Assembly: GCF_003352185.1 (NCBI RefSeq)
Contig: NZ_CP029608.1
Coordinates: forward strand, 4,754,501 to 4,818,500
DNA: 64,000 nucleotides
Direction of reading: 5' to 3'
Source of the DNA: Pseudomonas kribbensis
Lineage (GTDB): Bacteria; Pseudomonadota; Gammaproteobacteria; Pseudomonadales; Pseudomonadaceae
Numbering within the stretch: the stretch's first letter is position 1; each line of letters starts with the position of its first letter. Made by a program: the position numbers and the translations under genes. This document shows positions 1 through 4,705 of this stretch, piece by piece. The notes below the pieces were generated by a model. It worked only from the letters and a program-made list of their open reading frames with translations, did no database searches and was not told the DNA's origin.

Positions 1-1659
1 CCGTTCTACAGCCCTCATCAGACCTATGTTGCCTTCCTGCACAAGATCATCAAAAGCGAGCTCGGACCATCGATATTTGTTGGCTATGGAAAGCACTAAA
101 CGAAGGTTAGAAAGGATCATCCTTTCTCGCGCAGCTTCCTGGCGTCGAATAGCAGAGGAGAAGCCTGCACCTGCCAAATCACAATCCGCCTTCCTCGAAA
201 GCTCAATGAGAAAAATTCGGGAAAGATTTGCAGCGGCAAGTCCACTTCGGACTTTCACGTAATCGTTGCCAGCAGAGCGTGCAGCTGAAACCGAGGAGAC
301 AAAGGTTGTTGCGATCGAATCGAGTCCGATCTTATCCTCTTCGTAATCTGCCTCCTCATTGGAGGGCATCTCACTGGAGTTTTCGCTTACGTCACCTTCA
401 CTAGCTGGATCATCGCGAGAGGTGAAGCTCTCATGACTCGCCTGGCCTCGGGCTACTTTGTCGGCAGCTTCGAAAACAAAAGTAAGTCCTGAGGGCCAGC
501 GTGAGAGCGCATCCAGGGCCTGAGCCCTTGCCTCCTCCATTTCCCGGCCCAATGCAATTTCCTCAGCAGCCAGAAGCAGGTCTTTCTTTAAGCCCTTAGC
601 GTAAAATCTCAGCGGTTCGTTACGACCCGATGCGAGGTCTTCTGCGAACTCCAAGGCTTCTGATAGCTTTAATTCTTCATCAACTGACGGCTCGACAAGA
701 TCAGACTGATCGGTAATCTCCGACCACTCATCGATCAAGACTCCAAGATCGCCTAAAACGAAAGTCAGAAGACGCTCAGTTTCCTCATTGCGGGAGAGAT
801 CACCCTCACGGCATACATCGATAAGAGCTGATTTGGGTACTGTCCCTTCTCGTAAACCCCGGAAGAATAAGCCACGTAGATCAGCACGATCCTCACTGGT
901 TAAAGGAAGCGATCTTTCTGGAAGAAACAGATCGACATCGTCCCACTCCACATCAGTGTCGATCGCTTTGAACTTGCCTATCGTTCCTTGAAGTGTGCTG
1001 ATTTCTTCGGCTACGGCCATGTTGCCCTGCGGGGCAACCACTTCAGACTCCGCTTCCCAGTCATCCTCAAACCCCAAGTCGAGAGGCTCGTCGTCGAGTT
1101 CAATCAGGTCTTCGTGCGCCTTTGTCTCGAAGGGAACGGCATCCTCGTCAGCTCGGATCGTTTCCGCCTCGCGGATGACGAGTTCAAAAGATGGGTGATT
1201 TCCAGACGCGAGCACTTCATCAACCTGAGGTGGCACCTTAACCGCTTCATCTTCTATGTCGTTATGCGGCGATTCGCTCTGGACCGAGTGAGGGAGTAAC
1301 TCTCCGGCGCTTACATCACTCTGAAGCGAATTTTCAGTGCCCACATCGCTTACTTGGAAGGAAAAACCAAGTGCTTCTCGCAATAGGTCAATACATTGAG
1401 CACAGTTACTCTTCTCCGCGTAAGCGAGAGCAGTTCGGCCTTCGGGATCGAGCAACTCTGGTTTTGCTCCAGCAGCCAACAGAAGCCGTACAATGCCGTT
1501 TTTCTTTCGAGCAGAGGCAAGCATTAGAGGCGTAGCGCCTGCCCCATCGCGAGCGTCAAGATCGTCGCCACGCGCGATATGGAGTTTGACTGCAACCTCC
1601 ACACCGGCAATGGTCGCCATACGGAGCAAGGGGTTCAATTTAGCCACGGTGCTACCCAC
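1..1659 (-). CDS. Ankyrin-repeat / sigma-70 fusion protein, C-terminus beyond the window
   Basis: The minus strand is open without a stop from 1677 to the window edge, giving at least 553 residues from a GTG at 1659 (GTG 1647 and ATG 1620 are alternatives; none has a strong Shine-Dalgarno). Residues about 13-95 hold two or three ankyrin repeats ([35 protein letters not shown]). A very acidic linker follows to about 235. Residues about 260-315 resemble sigma region 1.1 ([15 protein letters not shown]), about 344-405 region 1.2 ([10 protein letters not shown], then [12 protein letters not shown]), and 506-553 region 2.1-2.2 ([28 protein letters not shown]). Regions 2.3-4 should lie to the left. 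The order matches a primary sigma factor with an ankyrin domain in front, so a promoter-specificity or decoy role on RNA polymerase is inferred. The codons are less GC-rich than the core genes further right, and vsr lies beside it. I do not know a named family for it. Confidence 0.8.
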
Positions 1660-1680
1660 ATGCCCAAGCGATTCGACTTA

Positions 1681-2227
1681 AAAGTCACTCCCACATCAAT
1701 CAGTTGAGAAATGACTTTGCTACATCCTTCTTTTTTCAGAACCGACTCCTTGTTCATGCTTCCATTTGCAAGCTCATACCCCTTAGTGCTGACACTAATT
1801 TGGCCTAATGAGAACGCGGTTGAATGTGGTGCGAGGCCTTCCCGAAGTCACTTACGTTTTCCTCAAAGAGGAGCACAGTGGCGCAACGCCATCCACAATA
1901 TCCACTTGTTAAAGGCACGTAAAGGACAGACCAAGGATGCCTATCACTACACTGATTCGGGTTGTCAGCGCTTGCATTTCTGAGCAGCCACGCGTTGCTT
2001 ATCTTTTAGTAAATACAGTACCGATCGTCTGAAAATATTGGTGCCCTACAGGTAAATTCGTCCGACAGGCAGCACATTGGATACGCCAAGATATGTTTTT
2101 CAACTGGGGGTATAGGCATGACTTTCCGAGAAGATGCAATCTCGACTACCTCCCCGAACCATTGATGTCATGTTTCGAGCGCCGCGAAAAAATCGAATCA
2201 ATGGACTAGTACGGATGCCTACATTGG
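1681..2227. other. Gene-free stretch between the ankyrin-sigma gene and vsr
   Basis: About 550 bases with no convincing gene. Open frames exist on both strands (for example minus-strand codons upstream of the ankyrin-sigma start reading ELANGSMNKESVLKKEG), but none has family similarity or a good ribosome binding site. Composition is AT-richer than the chromosome average. It probably carries the promoters of the two divergent genes plus remnant sequence. Confidence 0.4.
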
Positions 2228-3035: not shown

Positions 3036-3545
3036 ATGTCTGAACCACTTCTTCCAACTCGATTTGTCCGCAACAAAACCCACCTGCATGCCCTTCTGGT
3101 GGAGAACCAGGCCTGGTTCTGCGTCCATGAACTGGGGCGGCTGATGGGTAAATATCTGGATGAGCGACAGCTGCGCAAACTCGATGCCGATCAGCGACAG
3201 ATGATGTGCGTGGAGACCTACGGCGAGCCCGGAGAACATCTGATGGTGAGCGAGTCAGGTGTGTATGCGCTGCTGATCTATCACTACTGCCCTGAGTATC
3301 GACAGCTTCGCGAGTGGGTGACGCATCAGGTTGTGCCTGCGCTGCGAGATGCCCGTCCGACGCGCTCGGTTGAGCGTCCGATACTGAGTGTTTTGAGCTG
3401 GCCCAAGATGTCGTTGAGCACGTTGCACTGGCAGGATGAGCCATGGATTCGGTTGCGGGATATGCCGTGTTTGCTGGCGGAGGATCCGTTTAATCGTCAG
3501 GAATCCTGGTGGCGTAAAGCTTCACGAATGCTGCGTAGTTACTGA
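3036..3545 (+). CDS. BRO-N domain protein, phage antirepressor-like
   Basis: 169 residues. The N-terminal 100 follow the BRO-N / phage antirepressor pattern: a short beta-rich start, VENQAWFCVHELGRLMG as the helix-turn-helix-like part, then SESGVYALLIYH and LREWVTHQVVPALR, the standard end of the domain. No Ant or KilA-C domain is recognisable in the last 60 residues, so it belongs to the short Pseudomonas versions that consist of little more than BRO-N. Such proteins bind DNA or repressors in prophages; here no other phage gene is visible, so its target is unknown. The GGGAGG ribosome binding site is strong but lies in a hairpin, and a strong terminator follows six bases after the stop. Confidence 0.85.
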   Translation: MSEPLLPTRFVRNKTHLHALLVENQAWFCVHELGRLMGKYLDERQLRKLDADQRQMMCVETYGEPGEHLMVSESGVYALLIYHYCPEYRQLREWVTHQVVPALRDARPTRSVERPILSVLSWPKMSLSTLHWQDEPWIRLRDMPCLLAEDPFNRQESWWRKASRMLRSY

Positions 3546-3550
3546 TATCA

Positions 3551-3587
3551 AAAAACCGCTGCTTGAAAACTCAAGCAGCGGTTTTTT
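3551..3587 (+). terminator. Rho-independent terminator after the BRO-N gene
   Basis: AAACCGCTGCTTGA pairs perfectly with TCAAGCAGCGGTTT around an AAAC loop, followed by a T run. Confidence 0.95.
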
Positions 3588-3718
3588 ATGACCCGAAGTG
3601 TCGGGGACAGCCAGTCCTCGGCAGACGGGTTCTGCATCATCCTGAAAACAATCAGTGCAACCCACCCCTCCACCCGCTATTAATAACCCCTCCCCCACTC
3701 AAGGACCCGAGCCCCACC

Positions 3719-4705
3719 ATGAAATTCGACCTCGCCTACTGCCTCAGCCTCGACGACAAACTGTCGATCTATGACGTTCGCGATCTCAATTTCGATGAGA
3801 CGGTGGCGTTCGACTCCACCAAGGAACACTTCCAATGCCCCAACAACGCCTGCCGTGCGGCGTTCGATGCTTCCAACGAGTTGGGTACGTTCAACGCCAA
3901 GAACGTGAATTACGTGCGCACGCCGCACTTCAAGAATCTGCCTGGTACGCAGCATGTGGCGGGTTGTCCGTATGTGAGTGTGAAGACGTCGGCGTCTGGG
4001 GTTGAGGCGGCGGATGGGGAAACGGATGACGGGCGTGAGGAGCATTTCCCGTCGGAGTTGTTACTGACGCGCCGTGAGTATGTGCGCAAGCCTGCCGCGC
4101 CTGCGGGGGCGGCGGATGTGTTGCGGGATGATCCGGTGCGGGTGGCGGCTACCCCCTCAAAAGAGTCGCCGAGTCGTGACACGGCGCCGGACAAGACCAG
4201 CGTCTTCGCTCACCCCGTGGAGTGTTTTGTGTCGAACTTCGCGGACAGGGATTTGCTCAAGCGCATGCCATTGAAGATTGGCGAGCATACGGCGCCGTAC
4301 AGTTCGTTCTTCAAGAAGATCGAGTACTTGATGGACAACAAGGGGCTGATTTACTGGGGCCGGATCAAGAAGATCGAGGACTTCCACAGCGCCAGTTTCC
4401 GGATCGATTTCGAGGACAAGGTCTGGTTCAAGAAGCCGGATGACAGCAAGAAGAAGCCTTATCCGGTCAGTGTCTATCTCAACAAAAAGCTGATCGACAA
4501 CTACCGCAAGCGCAAGGCGTTTCTGGAAGAGATCAAGCACGCCATCGACAGCGACAAGGAGTTGTTCTGCTTCTTCTATGGTGTGACGCCGGAGTTGAAG
4601 CAGGTGCCGGGCAAGAAGAACCCCGAAAAGCCTTTCGAGGTCTTCAATGCCAATATCGAGAACCTGGATCACTTCATCATTCGTGAAGCGCCGGGGCTGG
4701 CGTGA
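3719..4705 (+). CDS. Conserved-looking hypothetical protein with an N-terminal Cys/His cluster
   Basis: 328 residues from ATG 3719, where the product becomes protein-like (MKFDLAYCLSLDDKLSIYDV); the frame stays open further upstream but crosses the preceding terminator. Cys40, Cys45, His70, His79 and Cys83 (FQCPNNACRAAF ... TPHFKNLPGTQHVAGC) could bind zinc. The spacing recalls the small metal-binding front domain of CoiA-like proteins, which is only a resemblance. Residues 95-160 are low-complexity, rich in Ala, Asp, Glu and Pro. The rest is a charged mixed alpha/beta region (SSFFKKIEYLMDNKGLIYWGR, VSVYLNKKLIDNYRKRKAF) containing no motif I recognise. No signal peptide or membrane segment. 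It lies between the phage-like gene and core genes; its codon use is like the core's. Confidence 0.75.
   Translation: MKFDLAYCLSLDDKLSIYDVRDLNFDETVAFDSTKEHFQCPNNACRAAFDASNELGTFNAKNVNYVRTPHFKNLPGTQHVAGCPYVSVKTSASGVEAADGETDDGREEHFPSELLLTRREYVRKPAAPAGAADVLRDDPVRVAATPSKESPSRDTAPDKTSVFAHPVECFVSNFADRDLLKRMPLKIGEHTAPYSSFFKKIEYLMDNKGLIYWGRIKKIEDFHSASFRIDFEDKVWFKKPDDSKKKPYPVSVYLNKKLIDNYRKRKAFLEEIKHAIDSDKELFCFFYGVTPELKQVPGKKNPEKPFEVFNANIENLDHFIIREAPGLA

Follow-up and report, generated by a model that had tools for sequence, protein, structure and literature searches.

The MZA anti-phage system (MzaA-E) is credited to Gao et al. 2020, as cited in the available part of PMC9523054, according to which only a few of the related systems contain mzaA. 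The available part of PMC10924106 places mzaA among the defence genes with a high mutation frequency in every environment compared. Within the portions of text available to a literature search, MzaA, the MZA system and mzaABCDE occur in passing mentions only, and the need of a defence system for a sigma factor is left unexplained; a search for mza and ankyrin together returned only an unrelated flavonoid paper, and the founding MZA paper may well mention the module. The words sigma and ankyrin do not occur in the accessible portion of PMC2292703, which describes related operons. Here we describe an mza locus at the left edge of a window of 64,000 nucleotides from Pseudomonas kribbensis (G000:C1:4754501-4818500, single-contig genome of 6.3 Mb), the window being the whole stretch of DNA that was analysed. 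The gene cut by the left edge is near certainly mzaA, heading a complete copy of MZA, and its product, a sigma-70-like protein with ankyrin repeats, probably ties the DNA-cutting machinery of MZA to RNA polymerase.

The gene order at the locus is mzaA, followed by mzaB, mzaC, mzaD and mzaE, with dcm and vsr as flanks. For each of the five proteins the best model of PADLOC and NCBIfam is that of its own Mza counterpart. MzaA scores 228 bits with the PADLOC model (PDLC02203) and 517 bits over amino acids (aa) 7-747 with the NCBIfam model (NF041931), whose curated equivalog cut-off is 800 bits. The other four proteins likewise score below their NCBIfam cut-offs (MzaB 727 of 850, MzaC 1233 of 1500, MzaD 358 of 420 and MzaE 921 of 1050 bits), and because all five do so the locus is, judged by these models, a diverged member of the MZA system. 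MzaB reaches its cut-off in none of 398 genomes of the phylum, the highest score being 830 of 850 bits in genome G668. We note that the NCBIfam MzaA model also matches plain RpoD (144 of 144 genomes), so that the N-terminal part and the neighbouring genes matter for the MzaA call. With MzaA models as the best matches, an unknown kind of sigma factor is ruled out. An earlier note on this DNA had described the combination of ankyrin repeats and sigma regions as unlike any known sigma factor; this was not borne out, as the protein is a named MZA component and ankyrin repeats occur in 24 of 24 MzaAs scanned.

The part of mzaA inside the window (Table 1) is a single open frame of 553 aa that exits at the left edge. 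Traced further left, the full gene (L004:8850-11159, minus strand) encodes 769 aa and has neither a stop nor a frameshift. A chimera or window-edge artefact is thus ruled out, the frame being intact in the genome, and so is a pseudogene, there being no stop and an omega below 1 in relatives. On the full protein, Pfam places Sigma70_r2 at aa 515-583 (E 3.2e-21) and Sigma70_r4 at aa 682-732 (E 6.9e-15), both over cut-off, and finds zero matches to regions 1.1, 1.2 and 3 at E 0.1. The phmmer comparison with E. coli RpoD yields a weak region 1-like stretch and a second stretch at aa 507-745, covering regions 2-4. The Ank_2 profile comprises three copies of the repeat, and the protein passes as one with adjacent ankyrin repeats. 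The predicted structure of the part in the window is a poor model (mean predicted local distance difference test score, pLDDT, of 42, with 3 sequences in the alignment), within which the ankyrin part reaches 63-86 by blocks over aa 31-100. The longest frame opens at GTG 1659, and a TTG 21 bases further, ahead of the residues NPLLRMA, is also a possible start. The earlier note had read ankyrin repeats, an acidic linker, a region 1-like part and region 2 in one minus-strand frame, and this reading is confirmed by Pfam and phmmer. Its wider picture of a primary-type sigma scaffold joined to ankyrin repeats, beside vsr and in an anti-phage context, is supported. The leftward extension that it had proposed leads through an intact frame of 769 aa with regions 2 and 4 and without a Pfam match to region 3. 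Neither of the outcomes that it had named as damaging was found: the gene is no pseudogene, and sigma-70 similarity reaches beyond region 2 into region 4 (Pfam) and the region 1-like stretch (phmmer).

Table 1. Features of the mza locus in the window, with coordinates counted from the first base of the window.
Feature	Position	Strand	Basis
mzaA (MzaA), N-terminal part in window	1..1659	-	open frame and profile matches
Ankyrin repeats, aa 18-100	1360..1608	-	Pfam Ank_2, E 1.1e-9, over cut-off
MzaA motif at W201, W-[EDLV]-x-E-x-E...P..[ND], aa 201-213	1021..1059	-	alignment A1
MzaA motif at W239, IDTD.[DE]W.D[IV]...LP, aa 231-248	916..969	-	alignment A1
Region 1.1/1.2-like part, aa 255-443	331..897	-	phmmer against E. 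coli RpoD, 24.9 bits
Sigma-70 region 2, first 39 residues, aa 515-553	1..117	-	Pfam Sigma70_r2; the region continues to aa 583, beyond the left edge
vsr (very short patch repair endonuclease), oriented divergently to mzaA	2228..2647	+	Pfam Vsr, E 1.3e-29; NCBIfam TIGR00632, over cut-off
Candidate mza operon promoter, TTTACG-17 bases-TATTGT	1895..1923	-	kept in 4 same-genus sigma-type loci
Small upstream open reading frame, 40 codons, reaching 25 bases into the longest mzaA frame	1635..1757	-	same start in 4 same-genus loci

Among relatives, the ankyrin module is, on the evidence of profile scans, the constant part of MzaA. The scan covered all but one of the 25 MzaAs that exceed 560 aa (L104, nearly identical to L086, was left out), and the partial MzaAs L147, L150 and L153 are excluded from all counts of full-length MzaAs. 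Each of the 24 scanned matches an ankyrin profile at an E of 0.01 or lower, and 23 do so over the Pfam cut-off; the exception is L277, whose frame starts 178 bases from a contig end. Sigma-70 regions 2 and 4 are both present in each of the 24. Between the ankyrin and sigma parts lie two motifs whose residues W201, W239 and P247 do not vary among the 12 MzaAs of alignment A1. This alignment contains no member of the group that we term f261-type, where the equivalent of the first tryptophan, W201, is by eye a phenylalanine. A Pfam match to Sigma70_r3 is present in several other MzaAs and absent from that of the window. A domain at the C terminus, about 60 aa long, ending in ...G..Y.K and without a Pfam match, is common to the MzaAs of L059, L140, L151 and L089; the MzaA of the window does not have it.

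Conservation of the sigma half was scored on 163 RpoD-invariant sites of regions 2-4 in 20 non-redundant MzaAs, three near-identical ones having been dropped, using contacts which we take to be those of E. coli sigma-70 and whose positions were checked against the phmmer alignment to E. coli RpoD. Over all 163 sites a mean of 58% is kept. The seven -35 contacts are kept at 0.99, and the invariant sites of region 4 as a whole at 0.72 (0.0001 of random sets reach as high); six of the seven contacts show no variation across 23 MzaAs, and the remaining one is identical in 22 of them. The -12/-13 contacts are kept at 0.90 versus 0.62 for region 2 (random sets as high: 0.006), and the contacts to the single-stranded -10 element at 0.82 (random sets as high: 0.02). 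The three sites of the 3.2 finger are mostly lost (0.25 kept), and in the f261-type group the finger is absent. Compared with a primary (group 1/2) sigma factor, MzaA has regions 2 and 4 together with the residues that read the -10 and -35 elements; region 3 has no Pfam match in the protein of the window, and the finger sites are mostly lost. The frozen -35 and -12 contacts are more in keeping with docking or activity than with a pure decoy, and the lost finger counts against normal initiation. We tentatively favour a mechanism in which MzaA would be the recognition subunit of the system: it would dock on RNA polymerase at housekeeping-type promoters and would carry or trigger the MzaB-E machinery. 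Of three roles suggested in the earlier note, an anti-phage sensor and a regulator of polymerase during attack are both still in play, while a specificity factor for a genomic island has become less likely because the -35 reading residues are of the housekeeping sigma type.

The retained -35 and -12 reading residues are also what one would expect if MzaA were an active sigma factor that transcribes mzaABCDE, and perhaps a few host genes, once a phage disables the housekeeping sigma factor, the ankyrin module acting as the switch. This alternative, which we consider unlikely, draws support from the DNA upstream of mzaA as well. In the four same-genus sigma-type loci little of this DNA is still alike beyond some short runs, among which CTTTAC and GATATTGTG stand out; the hexamers TTTAC[CG] and TATTGT, with a spacing of 17, are found in all four, 248-278 bases ahead of the longest mzaA frame. 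The conserved site, however, is a plain sigma-70 site, so that RpoD itself may use it. A scan for strict consensus promoters found 0, and a weight-matrix scan of 10 loci (weights entered by hand) gave no site above shuffled sequence, with 11-77 of 100 shuffles scoring as high, and 40 of 100 for the best score at L004. The pattern TT[GT]ACN-15-19 bases-TATTGT, chosen after the alignment, has 9 matches over 59 loci versus 3.3 by shuffling; six of these lie upstream of mzaA and three are one E. coli site far from mza. The finger, degraded in most MzaAs, likewise argues against a factor that initiates transcription.

Most MzaA cores form long branches in trees, and five are RpoD-like (58-71% to the RpoD of this genome over the core). 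A tree of these five, with the ankyrin part removed, and 46 RpoDs groups L277 with the RpoD of G731 (100/99) and places the remaining four together in a clade that also holds the RpoD of the order to which they belong (100/100). A single clade of the five is rejected (log-likelihood lower by 100.6, approximately unbiased test p-AU 2.75e-9), and because of this rejection we conclude from the trees that the sigma half of MzaA was captured from host-lineage rpoD at least twice. Two considerations temper this conclusion: the five were chosen for their RpoD-likeness, with L277 being a long branch, and a single clade of all 25 MzaA cores (235 columns) is not rejected (p-AU 0.224). The latter clade is seen in 0% of 200 bootstrap trees, and was seen in 14% before L277 and L270 were added. 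After capture, change was greatest in region 1.1, joined by region 1.2 in one line and by the finger in the other, and least in region 2 (3 and 7 of 76 invariant sites). The sites altered in both capture lines number 16 versus 7.1 expected (p 1.6e-4, a value that ignores differences in freedom from site to site). These sites, the repeated capture of host-lineage rpoD, which is what a mimic of the host needs, and the position of MzaA as the fast-evolving part of the system all speak for a further rival, in which MzaA is a decoy bound by phage anti-sigma or polymerase-appropriating proteins, the ankyrin module then releases MzaB-E and promoter binding is unused. We regard it as doubtful: a pure decoy needs no -35 contacts that are kept better than the rest of region 4. 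Repeated capture and a high rate of change agree with docking as well as they do with a decoy.

The rate of change was compared on longest frames, some of whose starts may be wrong. In 12 of 13 locus pairs the nonsynonymous divergence (dN) is greater for MzaA than for MzaB, and in 11 of the 12 pairs having MzaE it is greater for MzaA than for MzaE. MzaA is the top of the compared genes in 8 of the 13 pairs, MzaC, MzaD, MzaB or MzaE leading elsewhere; the five exceptions comprise two pairs with hardly any difference in any gene, two in which MzaC is unusually diverged and one led by MzaD. In diverged pairs where omega is defined it amounts to 0.22-0.36 for MzaA versus 0.03-0.15 for MzaB and MzaE. 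By these rates MzaA is a constrained and at the same time fast protein. Its modules are also swapped, as sequence identities at one locus indicate. The ankyrin part of the L091 protein, from the same genus as the window, is 75% identical to that of the window, and from the linker through the middle to the core it shares 15-35% identity with the MzaA of the window versus 46-68% with that of L092, with a break near the end of the ankyrin repeats. The MzaCs of L091 and L092 are 93% identical.

In alphaproteobacteria GcrA is a separate small protein. GcrA-type DNA-binding domains are fused into two MzaAs, both of the f261 family: L092 carries one copy (aa 759-806) and L144 three (aa 251-300, 356-408 and 1042-1094), and none was found in the other five scanned members of their group. 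The f261-type hosts appear, from our reading of their proteins, to be Rhodobacter-like alphaproteobacteria. GcrA binds sigma-70 and activates promoters with methylated GANTC sites, according to the available part of PMC7987155, and the fused domains could read promoter methylation. A bolder form of the docking mechanism is a transcription-coupled restriction, in which a sigma mimic renewed from rpoD would park an ATPase-nuclease at promoters, and initiation on unmarked phage DNA would recruit the nuclease; we think it rather improbable in this full form. In some relatives the GcrA domains on the same subunit could then read promoter methylation directly. Directly upstream of mzaA, L142 has a WYL-domain gene (L142:12484-12972), a probable regulator, and a similar frame stands ahead of mzaA in L092 and L144.

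Relatives were drawn from samples (144 relatives; 369 genomes of the class, 398 of the phylum and 199 of the genus; 195, 40, 200 and 48 genomes of four orders), of whose MzaB and MzaC matches some were fetched and read, so that frequencies are rough. Two kinds of MzaB-E locus occur, one with mzaA at its head and the other without mzaA and usually with dcm and/or vsr. The sigma type is found in at least 7 of the 398 phylum genomes (weak matches mostly unread) and in at least 4 of the 199 genus genomes (10 of 14 matches read); in E. coli mzaA and mzaC each occur in 55 of 5426 genomes, the two lists not having been matched row by row. A scan of genome contigs gave a single locus, not used, with a match limited to aa 10-96. 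On a quick tree of MzaC with 65 loci, 24 have the sigma gene, 39 have none in the stretch read and 2 are unlabelled, and the label needs two changes over the 63 labelled loci, for which a single gain followed by a single loss is the best reading. The inferred loss concerns two close same-genus relatives, L138 and L139, which have dcm ahead of mzaB, at the place of mzaA. Such loci, and the frequency of sigma-less ones, would suit a rival in which MzaB-E and Dcm/Vsr do the defence and MzaA is a passenger, either decaying or at most regulatory. This is the least probable of the explanations considered, in view of an omega well below 1 in diverged pairs, the near-invariance of the -35 contacts given above, and the position of mzaA immediately ahead of mzaB in all 23 loci with a full-length mzaA. 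MzaA as a replacement for Dcm/Vsr is ruled out, as dcm and/or vsr accompany mzaA in 20 of 27 sigma-type loci (BLAST, in the stretch read; some of the other 7 are cut by contig ends). One E. coli mza locus has its mzaB interrupted by an IS4-family insertion (L103:5248-8060). An Azospirillum MzaB-E locus (L057:5035-6744) shows no sigma gene in the stretch read; upstream there lies instead a protein that weakly matches HEAT repeats and whose front part looks, by eye, like a caspase.

Several observations weigh against docking of MzaA on polymerase as the favoured mechanism. The contacts to polymerase (beta-prime) are kept at 0.66, no better than region 2 at 0.62. In the six f261-type MzaAs (L090-L092, L142-L144) E407 and N409 are gone, along with most of the N383/R385/L386 pocket, so that polymerase binding may be weak or lost in this group. 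The N-terminal part was expected to track MzaC more closely than the core and failed to do so, the correlation with MzaC being r 0.44 for the ankyrin part, 0.62 for the N-terminal part and 0.76 for the core (rows L056, L103, L104, L142 and L270 dropped, as was L088, where mzaC is cut). Finally, the 39 of 65 loci of the MzaC tree that show no sigma gene in the stretch read mean that MzaA is dispensable for the existence of such machinery.

Further features surround the locus. The small open reading frame lies between the candidate promoter and mzaA in the four same-genus sigma-type loci, where it has 26-40 codons, begins M[DN]K.S......CSK.IS and ends 20-28 bases inside the longest mzaA frame. 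Its change by codon position is 34/37/56, most in the third, which does not prove coding; it may be a leader peptide or small protein. A gene with a Bro-N domain occurs near mza in the window (3036-3545, plus strand) and adjoins mzaA on a Thalassospira plasmid (L054:3736-4332), which may be chance. The open reading frame of 380 aa adjoining the former (3563-4705, plus strand) has no Pfam, PADLOC or NCBIfam match at E 0.1.

Four results look new from our comparisons: the taking of the sigma half from host-lineage rpoD at least twice, the retention of the -35 reader while the 3.2 finger is mostly lost, the higher dN of MzaA than of MzaB, and the presence of GcrA-type DNA-binding domains in two relatives. 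The constancy of the ankyrin arm, the frozen -35 reader, the loss of the finger, the repeated capture of rpoD and the GcrA domains make the question why a defence system needs a sigma factor directly testable, and the GcrA domains point toward the reading of methylated promoters. If it is true that MzaA ties nucleases to polymerase, bacteria could tell phage from self by transcription.

Compared with known systems, the locus has the same five genes in the same order as the MZA system of Gao et al. It has both dcm and vsr, whereas three E. coli mza loci have neither within the stretch. Its sigma-less relatives (type II in the available part of PMC9523054; the paraMORC operons in that of PMC2292703) have homologous B, C, D and E proteins and Dcm/Vsr in common with it, but they are without MzaA, and their MzaE-like protein is mostly about 690 aa long versus about 600. 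The DNA-binding domain of GcrA, a cofactor of sigma-70, is found in the MzaAs of L092 and L144 and absent from that of the window. Unlike RpoD, MzaA evolves fast and does not conserve region 3, the finger and the activator face; it has in addition the N-terminal ankyrin module and the two tryptophan motifs. With RpoD it shares regions 2 and 4, the same -35 and most of the -10 reading residues, and a region 1-like part.
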